This document shows, one piece after another, positions 37,115-46,722 of a DNA stretch of 64,000 nucleotides. The notes beneath the pieces were generated by a model. That model ran no database searches, was not told the origin of the DNA, and was given only the letters and a program-made list of their open reading frames with translations. The stretch's first letter is position 1, and the number at the start of each line of letters is the position of its first letter. The position numbers were made by a program, and so were the translations under genes. The stretch lies in contig JAHBXQ010000004.1 in the NCBI GenBank assembly GCA_019636345.1, forward strand, positions 434,001 through 498,000, given 5' to 3'. Origin of the DNA: Pirellulales bacterium. GTDB taxonomy: Bacteria; Planctomycetota; Planctomycetia; Pirellulales; Lacipirellulaceae.

Positions 37115-37481
37115 GAACGAATAAGCGTCGGGCCGGGGCGAAGCGCCGGCGACGAGGGCCCGGTTCGCCTCGACGCGATCCGCGGGGAGCCGTATGTCGC
37201 CAATCCGCAACCTCGTGAGTCCGCAACCCGGGACGATGTTGCCGAAACGCCACGTCCGACGCCAAGTTCGCGGCGGCCGCAACAATCTTCCCGCCCCGGG
37301 CAGTCCCCAATTTCCGCAGCATAGTAGGTTTTTAGCAGGGAGACAGCGCCGCTCGGCACGTCCCTTGCCATTTCACGGGGCAGACGCCGTTTTTCGGCGT
37401 CCGCCCGCCAGCGCGAGACCGACCGCTCCGTCGACGAACACGTCGACTTGTTTGTCACGGTCTTGTCAGACAGGTATCGCC
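37115..37481. other. Divergent intergenic region
   Basis: This 367-base region lies between the CinA/NMNAT-like gene and the GNAT-type gene. It includes a small hairpin with a T5 loop (GACGCCG at 37383-37389 with CGGCGTC at 37395-37401) without a T-tract. It should contain promoters for both genes, but no convincing pair of boxes was found. Confidence 0.35.
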
Positions 37482-38672
37482 ATGCGGGCCAAGTTGCACC
37501 CAAGCGACGAGTGGCTCCGGATGGCCGATGTGGTCGAAATCACCGACCTGGCGGAACTCGATCATTATCGCATGGCGTGGAACGCCCTGCTGCCGGCGAC
37601 GCCGCGGGCCTCGTTCTTCCACACCTTCGACTGGTTTGCGGCCCAATGGCGTCACGCCGCGGGACCCGACCGGCGGTTTCGCGTGTTGGCAATCCGCTCC
37701 GCCGGCTCGATCGTCGGCATCGTGCCGTTGTGCGTCCAGACCGAGCGGTACCGGCTGGGCCGCGTGCGGGTGCTGACCTATCCGCTTGCCGACTGGGGAA
37801 TGTGGTACGGCCCGATCGGCCCCAACCAAGCGGCCTCGATGCGATTGGCGATGCAGCACGTCCGCAACGCGCCGCGCGATTGGGACTTGCTGGAACTGCG
37901 CTGGCTGGACGCCGCCCCCTGCGACCGCAGCGGGGCGGTCGCCTCGCTGCTGGCCGTCGGCATGCCCGCGCGGATGAGTCGGTACCAATCCACCTCGGTC
38001 GTCGAGTTTAAGCCGTCGTGGGACGAGTATCTCGCCGGCCGGTCGAGCAAGTGGCGTCATGAGTTGCGCCGGCAGTTGCGCGTCGTCGACGAACTGGGTG
38101 ACGTGGAGTTCGTGCGGCATCGTCCCGCCGGGGCCGTCCGCGGCGACGCCGACCCGCGTTGGGATTTGTTCGACGATTGCCAGCGCGTCGCCGCCGCTAG
38201 TTGGCAGGGTCGGTCGAACTCGGGCAATACGATCTCGCACGGCGACGTCCGCGAGTTTCTCCGCGAGTCCCATGCCGCGGCCGCGCGGCTGGGGATGCTT
38301 GACGTGGCGCTGTTGAAAGTCGACGGCGTCCCTGCCGCGTTTGCCTACAACTATTTCTACGACGGCCACGTCGTCGGGCTGCGGATTGGCTACGACAAGA
38401 GCGTCTCCGATCGGGGCCTCGGCCGGGCGCTGTTGGCCCATGTGATTCGCGACAGTTGCCGGCGCGGGGACAAGGAGATCGACATGGGTCCCGGGGATTA
38501 CGACTTCAAACGCCGCTTCCGGACCCGCGTCGAGACGAGCGCCCGCGTGGTCCACTATCCCCCGTTGGCGATGCGTTCGCTGGGAGTGCGGCTGACCCGC
38601 TGGCTCAAGACCCAGCCGTTCGTCCAGGACGGGGGAAAGCAACCGGCCGTAGGCGAGCCGTCGGTCGTTTGA
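37482..38672 (+). CDS. GNAT-type acyltransferase, CelD/BcsL-like (GNAT_6 domain)
   Basis: The 396-residue protein has the two-lobed organisation of CelD/FemAB-type acyltransferases. An N-terminal lobe contains FFHTFDWFAAQW and the ADWGMWYGP segment. A C-terminal GNAT lobe has LLKVDGVPAAFAYNYFYDGHVVGLRIGYD, SDRGLGRALLAHVI and the ending EIDMGPGDYDFKRRF, which is characteristic of the family. Such proteins often act on cell-surface polysaccharide precursors, but the substrate is unknown. The ATG at 37482 is chosen because the frame upstream is Arg/Pro-rich and looks non-coding. Confidence 0.85.
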   Translation: MRAKLHPSDEWLRMADVVEITDLAELDHYRMAWNALLPATPRASFFHTFDWFAAQWRHAAGPDRRFRVLAIRSAGSIVGIVPLCVQTERYRLGRVRVLTYPLADWGMWYGPIGPNQAASMRLAMQHVRNAPRDWDLLELRWLDAAPCDRSGAVASLLAVGMPARMSRYQSTSVVEFKPSWDEYLAGRSSKWRHELRRQLRVVDELGDVEFVRHRPAGAVRGDADPRWDLFDDCQRVAAASWQGRSNSGNTISHGDVREFLRESHAAAARLGMLDVALLKVDGVPAAFAYNYFYDGHVVGLRIGYDKSVSDRGLGRALLAHVIRDSCRRGDKEIDMGPGDYDFKRRFRTRVETSARVVHYPPLAMRSLGVRLTRWLKTQPFVQDGGKQPAVGEPSVV

Positions 38673-38908: not shown

Positions 38909-39154
38909 TTAGCGAGTTTGCGGCTCGCTGACGTTCTCGGCGTTCATCTCGGCCAGGGCCGCCGCCTCGCGGGCCAGTTTGAATTCCGGCCCAGGGGCGT
39001 AGTACTGAACGTCGTCCGATAGATGGTGCGGACTCGGCAACGTCTGTCCGGCGACGTCAATCTGGCAGCCAGTGACCCCCAGGCAACCGCAAGCGAGCAT
39101 TCCGCCGGCCCACCAGGGCATCCGACGACGAGACGAGGGCGAAGTCGCATTCAC
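38909..39154 (-). CDS. Small planctomycete-type lipoprotein
   Basis: This 81-residue protein starts with GTG at 39154, preceded by AGGAG at eight bases. It has a signal peptide ending in LGVTGC, a lipobox with Cys30. The mature part (QIDVAGQTLPSPHHLSDDVQYY, then APGPEFKLAREAAAL) has a regular sequence that I believe recurs in small planctomycete lipoproteins; this is memory rather than a search result. Its function is unknown. The longer frame to 39478 has no protein character. The gene is convergent with the GNAT-type gene. Confidence 0.75.
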   Translation of the reverse strand: MNATSPSSRRRMPWWAGGMLACGCLGVTGCQIDVAGQTLPSPHHLSDDVQYYAPGPEFKLAREAAALAEMNAENVSEPQTR

Positions 39155-39537
39155 AACTACGGCTCCTGGCGAGGAGGGGGCGAGCTCGGCCGGCGCGGCT
39201 TGGCCGCGACGGAAAGAGCGACCTAGTGCTTTGCCGACCCAAAAATTGACATGTGTCAAAGCGCTCGTTCCAAACGGCCGCACGGCGGCCGACGAGTTTC
39301 GGGCGTTACAATCGTTATCGACCGCGTGACCCGCAAACTTTGACCTGTCCGCTGAATTCTCCCGCTGGACTCTCCCGCTGGCGGCGCCAGCATTTCCCCG
39401 GGATGAAGGGTCCGTTCCGGCGTCGACCGCCCCGCTGCAGGGCGAACTGCTAGAATGACCGTGGTCGCCGGGCGTCACTTGTCTGGGTCGATCTCAGCTT
39501 TCCGCGCGTCGCTCCCCCGGAACGGAGTTGTGCCGAC
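39155..39537. other. Divergent intergenic region with TTGACA palindrome
   Basis: This 383-base region lies between the small lipoprotein gene and the CHAT-like gene. It holds the perfect inverted repeat TTGACA-TG-TGTCAA at 39246-39259, which presents a consensus -35 hexamer on both strands, in a short A-rich patch. No matching -10 box is evident at the right spacing on either strand. I see no other structure. Confidence 0.4.
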
Positions 39538-42500
39538 ATGCTAGCAAGAACTCTTCTTTGCGCCCTGGTCACGGCGACAGCCCTGGCGTCGGCGTCCCGG
39601 GCGACGGCCCAGGCTGTTTATCGGGACTCGATCCCGGGACAGGCGTACTTTGCCGGGACCGCCTCGCTGTACCGCGGCGATTACCGCGACGCGATCCGTT
39701 CGCTCAACTCCGGCGCCCGCGGCGCCATCCAGACGATCAACGCCCGGTGGGTCGATTCGGTCTGCTTCTACGCGATGCTGGGCGAGACGTACTATCACGC
39801 CGGGCGGTACCAGGATGCGCTCGCTCAGTTCGACGCCGCCTGCAGTCTGCTGCTGCAGAACCGGCAGTGGCTGTTGCGGGTGCAGTTCGAGCAGTTGACT
39901 CCCGACCCGACCGTCGCCCGCCGGGCGGCGCCGTGGGGCGTCACCGGGCGGCAAGTCGTTCCCGCACGGTTCGGCAACACGATGGCGGTCAGCCAGGGCC
40001 AGTTCGACAACAGTCAGGCCGTCGCCCAGGGCGGGGTCGTCCAGCAGTTGCAGTTTTGGCAAGTGAACGTCGTCGAGATCATGCGCTGCTCGGCCCTGGC
40101 CATCCGCCGCCGCAACGAGATCCTCGGCCCGCTGGCCAAGTACGACAAGCTCTCGGGCGACATGACGCGGCTGTACGCGGGCGGAGGCGGCGCGCCCCCC
40201 AACCATTGGTCCAACGCGTGGACTTCGCTGCTGCGCGGAATCGCCCAGGCGGGGGTCGGCGACACGACGCAAGCGGCTCGCTCGCTCGAAGCGGCGGTGC
40301 TCGCCGGAGGGCGGTTCGATCACCCCCTCACGGGCCTTGCCCTGTTGGAACAAGGCCGGCTTGCCATGGCAGGGGGCGAACCGCTGGTCGCGGAGAGTCT
40401 GCTGGCCGAGGCGAGCTTTTCCGCGTTCCAGTTCAGCGACCCCGCCGTCGTCGACGAGGCGTTTCGCTTGATCGCGATGAATCGTCAGGCCGCTGGAGCG
40501 CGGGACGTCAGTCCCTTGTGGCAGCCTGCCGCAGCATGGGCCCGCCGAGATCGGTTCGAACACATCGCCGCGCGCGCCCAATTGGCCGCTGGGGAGGAAC
40601 TGCTGGTCGTGGGGAATCATGCCGCGGCGGCTTCCGCACTGAAGGACGCTCAGAGCCGCATGCGCGACGCCCGCTCCGGCCAGTTGGGGATCGCCGCGGG
40701 GTTGCTCGACGCTCGGCTGCAATACGCTTTGGGGCGCGATTCGGCTGCGGCGGCGTTCAACGCGGCGCTGGCGGCGCAAAGCGACGCCTCGCTCCGCAAC
40801 TTCCAGATCGCTTTGGCCAATCAGATGTTCGACGCCCAGACCTTGCCGACGCGCGGGGCTCAGGACGTCTACGCCCAAATGCTCGCCGATCCCGGGGCCG
40901 CGGATCTGGCCTTTCGGTTCCTTGATGCGCTGGCCGTGATGAAGACCCCGCACGACGCGGCGTTCGATCGCTGGTTCGCCGCGGCGCTGGAGCGAAACAA
41001 CGTCGGCTATCTGATCGAGGTGGCCGATCGCGCCAAGCGTCGGCGGTACCACCAGCTTCTCCCCTGGGGGGGCCGGATTGACGCCATGCGGTTGGCGACG
41101 GCGGCGCCGCTCGGATCGCGCGACCCGCAATCCGCTCAAACGCGGCGCGACTTGCTGGCCGGTTTCCCCGACTTGGCCGCGGCGCTGGCGACCGAGCAGT
41201 CGCTCCGCACGCAGATTCAACAGCAATGGCTCCCCGAGCTTGAACTTGACGCCAAACGCCGCCAGACGCGGCTTTGGAAGGAGTACGCCGCGGCGATCGG
41301 CGCCCGCGAGCAGGAAGTGGCCGCGGCGGCGTTGACTCGCGTGCCGGTCGACTTCGCCTTCCCCCCGCGGGCCGAGACGGTTCAGGTCCAGCAGCGGCTT
41401 CGCCCCGGGCAGGCGATCCTCGTGTTCCACGACAGTCCCGCAGGCCTGTCGGCCATGTTGATGACCTCGAAAACCGCGTCCCATTGGAACTGCGGCCCCG
41501 CCGGACGCCTCGGACCCGCGGTCACGCAGTTGCTGCGCGCCCTGGGCAATTACGACGCGAATCGCGAGATCTCGACCGACGAACTGGCCTCCGACGAATG
41601 GCACGCGGCGAGCGACAAGGTCTTCGCCGCGTTGTTCGAGGGCGCCCGCCAGCCTCCCCACGCGATCAAGGAACTGGTGATTGTTCCCGACGGCGTCACA
41701 TGGTACGTGCCGTTCGAGGCGCTCTGGATCGAGGGAGAAGATCGCTCGGCGTCTTGGATTTCTTTCACGCAGATTCGGTACGCCCCGACCGTGGGACTTG
41801 CCATCCGGCACGATGGCCCCTGGCGTCGAGTCCAACGAACCGGCGTCGTCCTGGGGAGCCTCTCTCCCGGCAAGACCGTCGAAGAGCAGACCGACGCGGC
41901 CGAGATCATCCGCGACGCGGTCACGGGGGCGATCACGCTCGACGGTTCGCTGACGGCGCCGGGATACGTCGCCGGGTCGGCGCTCGACGGGCTGGTCGTG
42001 CTGACCGACGTCGACGCGACGTCCGGCGGGCCGCTCGATTGGAATCCCGCGCCGCTCCCTGAGGACCGCCGGGGGGCGCTCGCCGATTGGCTGCTGCTCG
42101 CCGGGACGGGGCCGCAGCGGGTCGTTCTCCCCGGGCTTCACACCCTGGCCGAGACGGGGGGGCGCGGCTCGCGGCGAGCCGGTTCGCTCGCGCCGGGCGA
42201 CGAGCTCTTCGCCGGGAGCTGCGCCCTCGCCTCCGCGGGGGCCGAGACGGTGTTGTTGTCGCGGTGGCGCGTCGGAGGGGATTCGGCGCTGCAACTGGTC
42301 CACGATTTTTTGCAGGAAGCGCCCCATTCCGCAGCGGCGGACGCATGGCAGCGGAGCGTGCAACTGGCGATGGAAACCCCTGTCGATCCGGTGAACGAGC
42401 TCCGCGTTCGGCAAGGCAAGTCGACGGAACCGCTCACCGCGGCTCACCCGTTCTTTTGGGCCGGTTACATGGTCGTCGACACGGGGTGGCGTCCTGACGA

Positions 42501-42669
42501 GGATGATGACCAGGTCGAGCCGGCGGACGTCGAGGTTCCGCCCGCAGCGGGGCCTGTCGCCGAAGGCGAGCCGCCGGCCGAGCCCGCACCGGCGGACGCC
42601 CCCGCCGCTGCGCCTGCGCAAGGGGATGAAGTCGCCTCCGAAACGCCCCCCGCCCCGGCGAGCGAGTGA
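39538..42669 (+). CDS. Exported CHAT-like protein with TPR-like repeats, catalytic dyad apparently lost
   Basis: The 1043-residue protein begins with a signal peptide (MLARTLLCALVTATALASA, cleavage near AQA). Residues about 30-450 are helical repeats, with TPR-like A-x-x-x-x-G-x-Y-x-x-A motifs such as YHAGRYQDALAQF. Residues about 640-985 have the CHAT fold pattern: VIVPDG-type strand, VPFEALW, and later VVLxGxxT, a GAETVLLSRWRV strand-turn around residues 901-912 and HPFFWAGYMVV from 970. The active positions differ. The usual HFACHG is LTDVDA (822-827), with Asp for the catalytic His, and the usual VVLSACxT is VVLPGLHT (862-869), with Leu867 for Cys. So it is likely a pseudo-protease. The tail is Pro/Ala/Glu-rich. 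It is upstream of the vWA-PP2C-kinase triad on the same strand. Confidence 0.8.
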   Translation: MLARTLLCALVTATALASASRATAQAVYRDSIPGQAYFAGTASLYRGDYRDAIRSLNSGARGAIQTINARWVDSVCFYAMLGETYYHAGRYQDALAQFDAACSLLLQNRQWLLRVQFEQLTPDPTVARRAAPWGVTGRQVVPARFGNTMAVSQGQFDNSQAVAQGGVVQQLQFWQVNVVEIMRCSALAIRRRNEILGPLAKYDKLSGDMTRLYAGGGGAPPNHWSNAWTSLLRGIAQAGVGDTTQAARSLEAAVLAGGRFDHPLTGLALLEQGRLAMAGGEPLVAESLLAEASFSAFQFSDPAVVDEAFRLIAMNRQAAGARDVSPLWQPAAAWARRDRFEHIAARAQLAAGEELLVVGNHAAAASALKDAQSRMRDARSGQLGIAAGLLDARLQYALGRDSAAAAFNAALAAQSDASLRNFQIALANQMFDAQTLPTRGAQDVYAQMLADPGAADLAFRFLDALAVMKTPHDAAFDRWFAAALERNNVGYLIEVADRAKRRRYHQLLPWGGRIDAMRLATAAPLGSRDPQSAQTRRDLLAGFPDLAAALATEQSLRTQIQQQWLPELELDAKRRQTRLWKEYAAAIGAREQEVAAAALTRVPVDFAFPPRAETVQVQQRLRPGQAILVFHDSPAGLSAMLMTSKTASHWNCGPAGRLGPAVTQLLRALGNYDANREISTDELASDEWHAASDKVFAALFEGARQPPHAIKELVIVPDGVTWYVPFEALWIEGEDRSASWISFTQIRYAPTVGLAIRHDGPWRRVQRTGVVLGSLSPGKTVEEQTDAAEIIRDAVTGAITLDGSLTAPGYVAGSALDGLVVLTDVDATSGGPLDWNPAPLPEDRRGALADWLLLAGTGPQRVVLPGLHTLAETGGRGSRRAGSLAPGDELFAGSCALASAGAETVLLSRWRVGGDSALQLVHDFLQEAPHSAAADAWQRSVQLAMETPVDPVNELRVRQGKSTEPLTAAHPFFWAGYMVVDTGWRPDEDDDQVEPADVEVPPAAGPVAEGEPPAEPAPADAPAAAPAQGDEVASETPPAPASE

Positions 42670-43051
42670 TCGCGCGCTCGGCTGCGGCGTGGTGCGTTCG
42701 ATCGCCTTCAAGTTCGAGTTTGGAATTTAGTGCGAGGTTCGGAAGATCGAGCTTCTGAGTCTCGCAACAACGGGGCGCCGGCGGCGATCTTCGCTCACTT
42801 TCTTCGTCGCTCAGCCAAGACGATCGTTTCTCCGGGCCTCGCCTCTCGGCAGGTGTTCGCTAATCGTTGCGATCGCGCCAGCACCGCTGAGGATTGGGGC
42901 CTTCACACGTTTTTCGCCCTGTTCGGTCCCGCGGGCTGCGGGGAAATTTCGTTGAATCCCTTACCCGGCCGCGATACAGTGAAAAAACGCGTCTGAATGA
43001 CGACGGGACCGCGCCGCTGCGTTCCCGGCCGCAGCGACTGAAAGGACGGTC
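42670..43051. other. Intergenic region with candidate promoter of the vWA gene
   Basis: This 382-base region lies between the CHAT-like gene and the vWA gene. It contains a plausible promoter at 42952-42980 and a normal ribosome binding site before 43052. I see no terminator hairpin after the CHAT-like gene and no other gene. Confidence 0.45.
42952..42980 (+). promoter_or_regulatory. Candidate promoter of the vWA-PP2C-kinase operon
   Basis: TTGAAT at 42952-42957 and TACAGT at 42975-42980 are separated by 17 bases. Each matches the sigma-70 consensus at four of six positions. The vWA start codon is about 70 bases downstream. Confidence 0.4.
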
Positions 43052-43735
43052 ATGGAGCAGCTTTCCGCCGATAACGCATTTGCGTCCGTTGAATTCGCCG
43101 AGAACCCCGAGCCGCGCGTCCCCTGCGTGCTGATCGTCGATACGTCGACCTCGATGCAGGGCCTCAAGATCGACGAGTTGTGCGTCGGTTTGCGCTGTTA
43201 CCAGGAAGAGCTGCTCGCCGACACGCTCGCCTGCAAGCGGGTCGAGGTGGCCATCGTCACCTTCGGCGGGCGAGTCCAGCGGGTCGTCGAGTTCACGACC
43301 GCCCCGGAACTCAAAATCCCCGCGTTGCAAACGATGGGCCACACCCCCATGGCCGAAGCGATCAACGTGGCTCTTGACATGATCGAACAGCGCAAGGAGT
43401 CGTATCGCCAGCACGGCATTGCGTACTATCGCCCTTGGGCGTTCATGATCACCGACGGCGAGCCGAGCGACGACCCGCAGCACGTCGCCCGCCGGATCCA
43501 ATTGGGCGAGGACGCCAAGTCGTTTTGCTTTTTCGCCGTCGGCGTCGACGGGGCCGACATGGACGTCCTGGCTAAGATCTCGGTCCGGGCGCCGCTCAAG
43601 CTGCAGGGGCTCAAGTTCCGCGAGTTGTTCAGTTGGCTCTCGAACTCCCAACAGGCGGTTTCGCGATCCAGCCCCGGCGACGAAGTGCCGCTCGAAGACC
43701 CCACCAGCGGCCCCAAAGGTTGGGCGTCGGTGTAA
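43052..43735 (+). CDS. TerY/YegL-like von Willebrand factor A domain protein
   Basis: This 227-residue cytoplasmic protein is a single vWA domain with a complete MIDAS metal site: DTSTS at residues 30-34, Thr98 in GHTPM and Asp135 in ITDGEPSD. It resembles TerY of tellurite-resistance loci and E. coli YegL. In these systems the vWA protein is encoded together with a PP2C phosphatase and a protein kinase, which is exactly the arrangement here. Its likely role is metal-dependent protein binding or scaffolding within a phospho-signalling module. The start has an AAGGA ribosome binding site at a good distance. Confidence 0.88.
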   Translation: MEQLSADNAFASVEFAENPEPRVPCVLIVDTSTSMQGLKIDELCVGLRCYQEELLADTLACKRVEVAIVTFGGRVQRVVEFTTAPELKIPALQTMGHTPMAEAINVALDMIEQRKESYRQHGIAYYRPWAFMITDGEPSDDPQHVARRIQLGEDAKSFCFFAVGVDGADMDVLAKISVRAPLKLQGLKFRELFSWLSNSQQAVSRSSPGDEVPLEDPTSGPKGWASV

Positions 43736-43889
43736 CGCCCGGTCAGGCTCGCAACCCGCCAAGCGCGCTGGTCGGTTGGTCGAGCAGTTCCGTCAACCGC
43801 CGTCGTCGGCCTCCAGCGGCGCCTGCCGCGCGTCGACAATTCGTTGAATCGCCGCTTGGCGTCCCCGCTCTCCGCCCCGTCGCCCCCGT

Positions 43890-44660
43890 ATGGACCAGGA
43901 CGAACACCGCTGGCGGTTCCTCGCTCAGAGCGTGACAGGGGCTTCCCATGCCGCGGCCGAATTGCCGTGCCAGGACTCCCATGCCGTGGCGGTGGTGGGC
44001 GAAGGCGACGCGGCGGCGCTCGTGGCTTGCGTGGCCGACGGAGCGGGGAGCGCCCCCCACAGCGACCAAGGCTCGGCGATCGCCTGCGAATCGCTCCTGG
44101 CGAGCGCCCGGCGGCACTACGCCGAGGCGGGCAGTTTCGCGGAGCTCGACGAACCGACCGTCGTCGCCTGGGTCGCCGAAGCTCGGCAGAACGTCGCACG
44201 GCGGGCGGAGGAACTCGCTTGCGACCCTCGCGACTTGGCCACCACGATCTGCGCGGCAGTCGTCGGTCCTGAGCGGGCCGTTTTTTTCCAACTCGGCGAC
44301 GGGGCGATGGTCGTCTCTCGCCAGGGAGTGCACGGAGTCGTATTTTGGCCCCAGTCGGGGGAATACGCCAACACGACCAACTTTCTCACGGCCGACAAAT
44401 TCGAGCAGAAGCTCGAGTTCGCCGTCGCCCCGGGCCGCATCGAGGAACTGGCGTTGATGACCGACGGGCTCGAACGGCTGGCCCTGCAGTTCGATGCGCG
44501 AACCCCGCATTTGCCGTTCTTCGCCCCGCTGTTCAAGGCGATCGTTTCCGACCAGGACGAAGAGACGCTCGCCGCCGACCTTGCCACGTTCCTCCGCTCC
44601 CCTGCCATCGAGTCGAGATCGCATGACGACAAGACCCTCGTCCTCGCAACCCGAAATTAG
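43890..44660 (+). CDS. PP2C-family serine/threonine phosphatase (YegK-like)
   Basis: The 256-residue protein has the PP2C-type metal-binding aspartates: Asp29 in CQDS, Asp50-Gly51 in CVADGAGS, Asp137 in LGDG, Asp192 in LMTDGLER and Asp246-Asp247 in SHDDKT. The G-A-x-H opening SVTGASHAAAELPCQDS is typical of the PP2C_2 subgroup found beside TerY-like proteins. It should remove phosphate from Ser/Thr residues, probably on the partner kinase or its substrates. The gene lies 154 bases after the vWA gene, and its last 38 bases overlap the kinase gene in another frame. Confidence 0.88.
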   Translation: MDQDEHRWRFLAQSVTGASHAAAELPCQDSHAVAVVGEGDAAALVACVADGAGSAPHSDQGSAIACESLLASARRHYAEAGSFAELDEPTVVAWVAEARQNVARRAEELACDPRDLATTICAAVVGPERAVFFQLGDGAMVVSRQGVHGVVFWPQSGEYANTTNFLTADKFEQKLEFAVAPGRIEELALMTDGLERLALQFDARTPHLPFFAPLFKAIVSDQDEETLAADLATFLRSPAIESRSHDDKTLVLATRN

Positions 44661-46722
44661 CGCGCTGCAGCTCGTGCTGGTCGACGGCGCGGGGCGCGAA
44701 GTCGTGCTCGGCGACGAGATCGGGCGCGGCGGCGAAGGAACCGTCTTCGAGGTGGTCGGCCGCCCCGAGCTGGCGGCCAAGCTGTACAAGAAGTCCCCCC
44801 TGGACGAGGAGCAGACTGCCAAGTTCCGCGCTCTCGTCGCACGCCGGAGCGCCGAGCTAGACAAGATTTCCGCGTGGCCGCAGGGGATGCTGTTCAATCC
44901 GGGGGACAACGTCCCGTTGGGGTTGATGATGTCGCGCGTCGTCGGCGCCCGGTCGCTGCACGAATTGTACGGCACGACCAATCGTCGGCGTCACTTCCCC
45001 GACGCCCAGTGGCGACATTTGCTGCTCGCGGCCCGCAACATCGCCGCGGCGTTTCACACGCTGCATGACGCGGGGGTCGTGTTGGGGGACGTCAACCAGG
45101 GGAACATGCTGGTCGACTCGCAGATGATGGTCCGGCTCATCGACTGCGATTCGTTTCAGATTTCCACGGGCGAACGGCTCTTCACCTGCCCGGTGGGGAC
45201 TCCGCACTTCACGCCTCCGGAACTGCAGACCCTCAAGCTCCGCGAGGTCGCCCGCACGGTCGAACATGATCGGTTCGGGCTGGCCGTGCTGGTGTTCCAC
45301 ATGCTGTTCGTCGGGCGGCACCCGTACGCGGGGCGGTTTCGTCGCACCGGGGATTTGTCGATCGAGCGGGCGATCGCCGAGCGGCGGTTCGCGTTCTCCC
45401 GTGATCGCCACGAAACGCTCGTCGACCCGCCCCCCGCGTCGCTCCATTTGGAGGACCTGCCGCCGGGGCTGGCGGTGTTGTTCGAGACGGCCTTCCGGGG
45501 CGAGCCGCGCGAACGGCCTGAGCCGATCGACTGGATTCGAAGTCTCGAGTCGCTGATCAAGGAGTGCAAGCTCTGCTCCTACGACGCGGCCCATGTGTAT
45601 TACCGAGGGCTCAAAGAGTGCCCGTGGTGTCGGATCGAAGACGCGGGAGGACCGTCGTTCTTCGTCGCCGATGCCGGAGGGACGATGGTCAGCAAGGATC
45701 GGCTGGCTGCGCTCGAGCTGAAGATTTCGCGATTGTCGCCGGTGACGTTCCCCGCGGTGCCGGCGACGACCCTCGCCCCTCCCAAGATGGCGCTGGTCAA
45801 GGCGGCGACGAAACCGGGGCGGCGAACCGCCGTCGATTGGGCCGTCTACGGACTTGTCGCCGCCTGGGGGCTGTGCCTGGCGGGCACGGGGTGGGGGCTG
45901 CTGTTGGCCGCAGGAACGGTCGGTTCGCTTGCCGCGGGCGGCTACCTTGTGTTCGGTCGTCCCGGCAAGGAACGCCGCCTTGCCGCGCATGATCAACGGG
46001 CCAAGATCGACGCCGGCTACGAGAAGGCGACCAAGCTGTCGCAAATGATCAAGTCGCGCCACGAGCAGCGGCAAGCGGCGTTCGATCGCATGTCCGAGGA
46101 GCTCAAGGCCGAGGCGGCCCGGTATCTGGCCAAGGGAGACAAGCTGCAAAGCGTGATCGCCGAATCCGCCCAAATCCAAAAGGCCGAGTACCTCCGCGGG
46201 TTTCTTATCGGCGACGAGTGGCGCTCGATCCCGGGGATGTCGCGAAATCTCGTGACGATCCTCGAATCGTTCGGCGTCGAAAACGCCAACGACGTCGATC
46301 CGATGATCCTGCACGGCGTGCCGTACGTCGACGACGAAGCGGTGCTGGAGCTCGTGGCTTGGCGGCGCGACAAGGAACACAGCTTCTCGTTCGCGCCGGA
46401 TCACGGCGTGACGGTGCAGGATCTGAAGGCTCAGGGCGAGTTGGCCGAGCGGCGATTCAAGGCGTCGCAGGCCCGGCGGATTCTCACGGCCGCCAAGCAG
46501 CGCGAGGAGTTCGCCGCGACGGCCCGCGAACAGCTCGCCCGCGAGGTCGCTCAGTACGAGAAGGTCGCCGACGAGTGGCGCGAGCAGGCCAAACGGTTCC
46601 GCGATTGGCAATCGAGCCGCCGCAAGCGCGAACGCCAGTTGAACGACAACCCGGCCGTCCTGATCGGCTTGGCCACGGGAATCCCGGCGGTCGCGGCGCT
46701 GCTGTGGCTGATGCTAGGGTAG
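44623..46722 (+). CDS. Membrane-anchored protein kinase-like protein with zinc ribbon and helix-hairpin-helix (YegI-like)
   Basis: The 699-residue protein starts with a kinase domain. It has a glycine loop GRGGEG at residues 34-39, a Lys53 candidate, a catalytic-loop equivalent GDVNQGN at 155-161 (HRD replaced by GDV, with Asp156 kept), DCD at 174-176 in place of DFG, and PEL near 199. A four-cysteine zinc ribbon follows (Cys315, Cys318, Cys333, Cys336). Then come two hydrophobic helices at about 405-445, a coiled coil, a helix-hairpin-helix-like segment around 525-580 and a C-terminal membrane helix. The plan matches E. coli YegI and the TerY-P kinase. The start overlaps the phosphatase gene by 38 bases; a GTG at 44674 would avoid the overlap. 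Confidence 0.85.
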   Translation: MTTRPSSSQPEISALQLVLVDGAGREVVLGDEIGRGGEGTVFEVVGRPELAAKLYKKSPLDEEQTAKFRALVARRSAELDKISAWPQGMLFNPGDNVPLGLMMSRVVGARSLHELYGTTNRRRHFPDAQWRHLLLAARNIAAAFHTLHDAGVVLGDVNQGNMLVDSQMMVRLIDCDSFQISTGERLFTCPVGTPHFTPPELQTLKLREVARTVEHDRFGLAVLVFHMLFVGRHPYAGRFRRTGDLSIERAIAERRFAFSRDRHETLVDPPPASLHLEDLPPGLAVLFETAFRGEPRERPEPIDWIRSLESLIKECKLCSYDAAHVYYRGLKECPWCRIEDAGGPSFFVADAGGTMVSKDRLAALELKISRLSPVTFPAVPATTLAPPKMALVKAATKPGRRTAVDWAVYGLVAAWGLCLAGTGWGLLLAAGTVGSLAAGGYLVFGRPGKERRLAAHDQRAKIDAGYEKATKLSQMIKSRHEQRQAAFDRMSEELKAEAARYLAKGDKLQSVIAESAQIQKAEYLRGFLIGDEWRSIPGMSRNLVTILESFGVENANDVDPMILHGVPYVDDEAVLELVAWRRDKEHSFSFAPDHGVTVQDLKAQGELAERRFKASQARRILTAAKQREEFAATAREQLAREVAQYEKVADEWREQAKRFRDWQSSRRKRERQLNDNPAVLIGLATGIPAVAALLWLMLG

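Follow-up and report, generated by a model that had tools for sequence, protein, structure and literature searches.

A dyad-less TPR-CHAT protein with a predicted export signal, kept across most sampled Pirellulales genomes and commonly paired with a small lipoprotein gene

There is a single CHAT-like protein encoded in the window (the whole stretch of 64,000 nucleotides that was analysed) that lacks both the catalytic His and the catalytic Cys of CHAT proteases, and it carries a long TPR-like superhelix and an apparent signal peptide. The loss of the dyad extends to all homologues that could be read at both positions, and the gene is present in most sampled genomes of the order Pirellulales. 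We consider this protein most likely to be a catalytically dead scaffold or receptor in the cell envelope, with a small, divergently encoded lipoprotein as the best candidate for its partner or tether, and we give this reading a probability of roughly 0.6. The gene, its parts and its neighbour are listed in Table 1.

Table 1. Positions in the window of the CHAT-like gene, its predicted parts and the divergent lipoprotein gene
Feature	Position	Strand	Basis
Predicted exported TPR and dyad-less CHAT protein (1043 aa; stop codon included in the coordinates)	39538..42669	+	ORF, Pfam, relatives, AlphaFold2 model
Putative signal peptide, cut likely after residue 24 (between ATA and Q)	39538..39609	+	Sequence; crude tests with inner-segment controls; low-confidence model stretch 18-28
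Predicted helical TPR-like superhelix, residues ~31-600, with beta insert 141-176	39628..41337	+	Model; weak Pfam TPR matches below cut-off
CHAT/separase-like domain, residues ~613-985	41374..42492	+	Pfam CHAT; fold match to separase 5fby; hhalign E 2.7e-21
Asp824 in the position of the catalytic His	42007..42009	+	His in 0/124 homologues, Asp or Glu in 87/124; register could shift by a few residues
Leu867 in the position of the catalytic Cys	42136..42138	+	Cys in 0/124 homologues; hhalign alignment
Predicted disordered, acidic, Pro/Ala-rich C-terminal tail, residues 988-1043	42499..42666	+	pLDDT <50 for nearly all residues from 990
Intergenic region common to the divergent CHAT and lipoprotein genes	39155..39537	.	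Coordinates of both genes
Divergent small lipoprotein of 81 aa with lipobox Cys30, the core LPSPHHLSDDVQYYAPGPEFKLAREAAAL and a putative GTG start	38912..39154	-	Neighbour counts; alignment A2

The open reading frame begins with an ATG at 39538 and ends with a stop codon at 42667-42669, and on re-reading, the frame, forward strand and coordinates given by a first-pass annotation proved to be correct. The protein matches the Pfam CHAT family (PF12770) with an E-value of 2.3e-10 and 40.8 bits against a cut-off of 24, wherein the match covers part of the model and is best over residues 893-980. An NCBIfam scan of the protein gave no score near the cut-offs. An antisense reading frame of 1056 codons (39541-42711, reverse strand) is located opposite the gene. 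Frames on the other strand cluster in relatives as well, and the antisense frame is probably an effect of high G+C codon usage.

The AlphaFold2 model of the protein, based on an alignment of 48 homologues (A1), has a pLDDT of 89.5 and a pTM of 0.88. It depicts a helical superhelix of about 570 residues, followed by an alpha/beta domain and then a disordered tail. The structures ranked highest by Foldseek for this model are Csx29/TPR-CHAT and separase. A structural aligner, run as a second look at the matches from Foldseek, scored separase (5fby) at Z 24.1 with 308 residues of the model part 488-985 aligned at 3.6 A and 12% identity. The Csx29/TPR-CHAT chains follow at Z of about 20-23, mostly with an rmsd above 12 A over the whole length, and gingipain scores a Z of about 15. 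The strands that hold the two catalytic residues in the separase/caspase-like fold are found in order in the model (818-822, 861-864 and 904-908). When PDB sequences were searched with the family profile, the matches were TPR proteins (largely designed ones) and some weak others, with neither separase nor Csx29 among them, and thus the relation to both rests on the fold and on the profile comparison with CHAT.

The first-pass annotation had proposed that the His/Cys dyad is replaced, citing the strings LTDVDA (822-827) and VVLPGLHT (862-869), and both strings are found at these places. The replacement is confirmed, and it is order-wide among the homologues that were read. A local hhalign alignment of the family with the canonical CHAT domains of the phylum has an E-value of 2.7e-21, and Leu867 is taken to stand for the Cys because this alignment pairs VVLSACeT with VVLPGfhT. 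The register of the His strand is less certain, as hhalign places gaps there, and an ungapped match of the strand sets Asp824 at the His. Nevertheless, the absence of the His is independent of the alignment register because there is no His between residues 758 and 868 of the protein.

There are 126 loci in the homologue set, which yield 128 ORFs, and 124 of these have letters at both sites; for all but one of the 128 ORFs the pairwise identity stays below 90%. Cys is never found at position 867, which is mostly occupied by F (66), M (18), L (11), V (10) or Y (9), and His is never found at position 824, where Asp or Glu is present in 87 of the 124. Some His is located within 806-861 in 55 of the 124 homologues, wherein there is no conserved column and the commonest position is 818 (14 sequences). 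A Cys is present within 862-870 in five ORFs, in none of them at 867, and the only ORF with both a His and a Cys in the two stretches (L192) has neither at the catalytic place. In the control, His and Cys occupy the aligned places in 31 of 31 canonical CHAT ORFs from 30 loci (L142-L171) drawn from the strongest CHAT matches, a comparison that is partly circular because 22 of these ORFs were picked by their His/Cys motif to build the alignment model; the remaining nine were not, and all nine show both residues. The predicted fold and profile match mark the protein as a CHAT homologue. It has neither of the two sequence features of CHAT proteases, the catalytic His (HG) and the catalytic Cys (VVLSACxT), and by these features does not qualify as one.

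When the protein was used as the query, 55 of 59 near relatives proved to have it, including all 48 with a completeness of 90% or more and a contamination of 5% or less. In the order Pirellulales, 237 of 247 genomes have a match to the family profile (A1, 48 rows). In a sample of 294 genomes from the phylum, E-values below 1e-60 are restricted to 16 genomes from Pirellulales and a single further genome (G151), which is possibly misbinned because its contig is 6.3 kb long and the bin is 6% contaminated. Of 73 genomes in this sample with any match, 56 show only partial matches. The gene is one long open frame in 51 of 54 loci (L001-L054), with two others cut by contig ends and one (L054, genome G040) split in two frames. 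The protein is kept by selection, as is evident from its presence in 237 of the 247 genomes and in all 48 near relatives, from the intact frames and from near-invariant residues. These residues include W133, E180, R191, W722 and E954, all away from the dyad. One genome (G055) has two copies of the family (L033 and L045), neither of which is located beside the lipoprotein gene. A literature search returned no paper that we recognised as concerning this dyad-less family.

The N-terminus has the appearance of a Sec-type signal peptide. The signal helix in the model spans residues 3-17 with only two residues before it, and it is followed by a low-confidence stretch (18-28). Export was assessed with crude tests that compare the N-termini of homologues with inner segments of the same proteins (120 readable). 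A hydrophobic start is found in 120 of 120 N-termini versus 24 of 120 inner segments, an AxA-like site in 111 versus 51, and a lipobox-like pattern in four versus none. A stricter test that is bound to the start codon is passed by 105 N-termini and by seven inner segments. The signal peptide suggested by the first-pass annotation is therefore supported, since these tests, crude as they are, exceed their controls. However, the accompanying claim that export is unusual for CHAT proteins is not borne out. Among canonical CHAT proteins of the same phylum, 13 of 19 have a signal-peptide-like start in the stricter test, versus two of 19 inner segments (19 of the 20 proteins fetched have a readable 5' end).

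A search for conserved neighbours, which had been recommended along with the dyad hypothesis, identified the divergent lipoprotein gene. Its product has the lipobox VTGC, followed by QIDVAGQTLPSPHHLSDDVQYYAPGPEFKLAREAAAL. The first member of this lipoprotein family matches no Pfam or NCBIfam family, and other members match families weakly and singly. When modelled alone, the lipoprotein folds poorly, with low confidence (pLDDT 64.9). The gene is divergent and at most 2 kb upstream of the CHAT gene at 90 of 126 loci, is lacking from the stretch that was read at 29 loci, and cannot be scored at seven, which corresponds to 90 of 119 informative loci. The median distance between aligned starts is 392 bp. 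No sigma-70-like promoter sites were found in a scan of the shared intergenic region.

The frequency of the pair varies among sets of loci, with 49 of 53 informative loci in L001-L054, 31 of 40 in L202-L241 and nine of 24 in L172-L201, a set picked for weak CHAT matches; L091 has the pair and L109 does not. These counts are limited by the length that was read, and two genomes scored as lacking (G467) or uninformative (G507) also have the two genes divergent and close by their coordinates, which would bring the L172-L201 set to 11 of 30 genomes. In another genome (G421) the lipoprotein gene is close to the CHAT gene and on the same strand. The CHAT/lipoprotein pair is conserved in this order.

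The lipoprotein is also found where the two genes are unlinked (G003, G016, G055, G216 and others), and a match is present in 45 of 49 genomes examined, which comprise linked, unlinked and CHAT-less ones. Across the phylum sample there are 53 genomes with the lipoprotein, namely 16 from the same order, 36 from the rest of the class and G151. None of the 36 genomes from other orders of the class has a full-length CHAT relative. Likewise, seven of the ten genomes of the order without a CHAT match have the lipoprotein, and thus the lipoprotein has a role of its own. No CHAT relative was found beside the lipoprotein gene at 19 loci from other orders, read to at most 8 kb on each side (some shorter), and no neighbour is common to more than five of these 19 loci.

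Pfam scans of four other neighbours gave Acetyltransf_6, VWA, PP2C_2 and Pkinase, with no sigma factor and no Cas protein. The gene for the GNAT-fold acetyltransferase (Acetyltransf_6) is located at 37194-38672 on the forward strand, and members of its cluster are found near the CHAT gene at 22 of 41 loci, although this clustering may mix unrelated GNATs. Genes for a VWA protein, a PP2C phosphatase and a protein kinase are arranged in a row just downstream (43052-46722, forward strand). These three were considered as partners and set aside, as none of the listed neighbour clusters with members at many loci was recognised as one of them.

Given that the protein is kept in most genomes of the order, mostly as an intact frame, and that the protease site is gone in every homologue read, it would most simply be a binder. 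TPR superhelices bind peptides. The cleft of separase and Csx29 also binds peptides, according to the title of entry 5fc2 and to passages of PMC10028731. We therefore favour a model wherein a Sec-type signal would send the protein out of the cytoplasm, and the TPR superhelix and the dyad-less, separase-like CHAT domain would form one large body. This body would most likely bind proteins or peptides, both in the groove of the TPR superhelix and in the cleft of the former active site, and so serve the periplasm or envelope of planctomycetes as a scaffold or receptor, with the divergently encoded lipoprotein perhaps acting as a partner or membrane tether. The first-pass annotation had proposed a pseudo-protease that acts as a binding or regulatory module. 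As a class of function this is the likeliest one, judging from the lost catalysis and the conservation. However, the protein is unlikely to regulate an active CHAT paralogue within its own cell, since it is the sole match to the CHAT model in the source genome (5.18 Mb). Elsewhere in the phylum, CHAT matches are found in 57 of 98 genomes, with up to 21 scored per genome.

The lipoprotein is a candidate ligand or membrane tether, and several observations weigh against it as the partner of such a scaffold. It persists in genomes without the CHAT family, the genes are not divergent neighbours at 29 of 119 loci within the stretch read, no match to the lipoprotein was found in one genome that has the CHAT protein (G393), and the lipoprotein folds poorly by itself. 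Its wider spread speaks for another or an additional receptor.

One possibility is that the two proteins resemble a separase-securin pair, wherein the lipid-anchored lipoprotein would pass its conserved linear segment through the cleft of the dead CHAT domain, anchoring the CHAT protein to the membrane. By analogy with securin or Csx30, a poorly folded lipoprotein with a strongly conserved core behind its lipid anchor would be an obvious candidate ligand, and both the retention of the divergent pair at most informative loci and the peptides accommodated by related clefts (title of 5fc2; the Csx29-Csx30 passages of PMC10028731) are consistent with this arrangement. However, the lipoprotein is kept in genomes that lack this CHAT family, and its core motif is also found in unrelated envelope proteins, which points to some other, wider receptor. 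We regard the securin-like arrangement as unlikely.

The core motif of the lipoprotein, LPSPxYLxDDVQYFxPG, is also present in larger envelope proteins (L092-L101, L322-L326). These include YfbK-type VWA proteins of nine genomes, four of which were assigned by Pfam and five by their common N-terminus. Weaker matches are found in a polysaccharide-export protein, a secretin-like protein, an outer-membrane protein and a DUF11 protein. In two genomes, G016 and G024 (L106 and L050), the motif also occurs in another small protein, whose gene is near that of the lipoprotein. The motif has the appearance of a portable signal for docking or sorting in the envelope. A role as a frequent address tag was rejected, as the pattern DD[VIM]Q[YF][YF] has only 0-4 sites per genome in 39 genomes. 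Perhaps the former cleft of a periplasmic 'dead separase' is the receptor for the motif LPSPxYLxDDVQYFxPGPEF on its partner lipoprotein and on other envelope proteins, which would constitute a peptide-docking system that organises the planctomycete envelope, although we consider this broader proposal quite unlikely.

Alternatively, the protein might still be an enzyme that catalyses a different reaction with other residues of the cleft, such as the acid at 824 paired with His868, or His868 paired with Cys895. An acid is present at 824 in 60 of the 63 sequences with His868 (phi 0.55, within the highest 0.4% of all column pairs that were compared), Cys895 is present in 77 of 124 homologues, and the conservation of E954, R909, S908 and D718 would be compatible with an unfamiliar catalysis. 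However, position 868 is His in only 63 of 124 homologues and Arg in 36, and H868 and C895 occur together in 48 homologues, compared with 20 for R868 and C895. In addition, on a tree of 123 sequences, changes at 824 and 868 share branches no more often than expected by chance (two seen versus 1.66 expected, p 0.52). Only two His columns of the CHAT half, 868 and 970 (94 of 123), and one Cys column, 895, rise above 30%, and none exceeds 77%. At the level of sequence there is thus no conserved pair of His and Cys columns that could form another competent dyad, the finding that would have overturned the first-pass proposal, and a replacement His/Cys dyad was rejected for lack of conserved columns. 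We consider an enzyme with different chemistry to be very unlikely, and continue to favour a binding scaffold.

Planctomycetes are known for unusual cell envelopes, and pseudo-enzymes illustrate how protease folds come to serve as scaffolds. In this bacterial order, a fold of the separase/Craspase type no longer has its dyad, yet the great majority of the sampled genomes retain it, apparently outside the cytoplasm. If our reading is correct, the family would offer a TPR-CHAT architecture that is naturally free of protease activity, together with a specific gene as candidate partner.

The resemblance to separase (5fby, 5fc2, 5u1s and 7nj1), as judged by fold comparison, consists of a helical superhelix followed by a caspase-like domain. 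Separase carries a His/Cys dyad, cleaves cohesin and is inhibited by securin. In contrast, the protein described here has neither residue, looks exported and is bacterial. Csx29, the TPR-CHAT protein of Craspase (type III-E CRISPR; 7y9x, 8eey and 8d9f), shares the whole TPR-CHAT layout. According to passages of PMC10028731, it cuts Csx30 by using H615 and C658 and works with Cas7-11. Unlike Csx29, the present protein lacks the dyad, and no Cas protein is encoded by the four neighbours scanned.

A bacterial protein of the same fold is already known in DdvA, a transmembrane anti-sigma factor (8rot and 8rw5). DdvA is reportedly a periplasmic TPR-CHAT protein with an incomplete His-Cys site, and is said to have a cytoplasmic sigma-binding domain before its transmembrane helix. 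A comparable sensor that controls transcription from the periplasm would agree with the fold match (8rot, Z 17.5, 496 residues aligned, rmsd 15.5), but it is highly improbable, as there is no room for a cytoplasmic domain when only two residues precede the signal helix, and no sigma factor is among the four neighbours scanned with Pfam. Thus, the protein begins with a signal helix at the place where DdvA would have its cytoplasmic sigma-binding domain, and no such domain is found.

The canonical CHAT proteins of the Planctomycetota (PF12770) are homologous to this family by profile (E 2.7e-21), and most of those with a readable start look exported as well. They differ in that His and Cys are kept in 31 of 31 (22 of them picked by this motif), whereas the family described here has neither.
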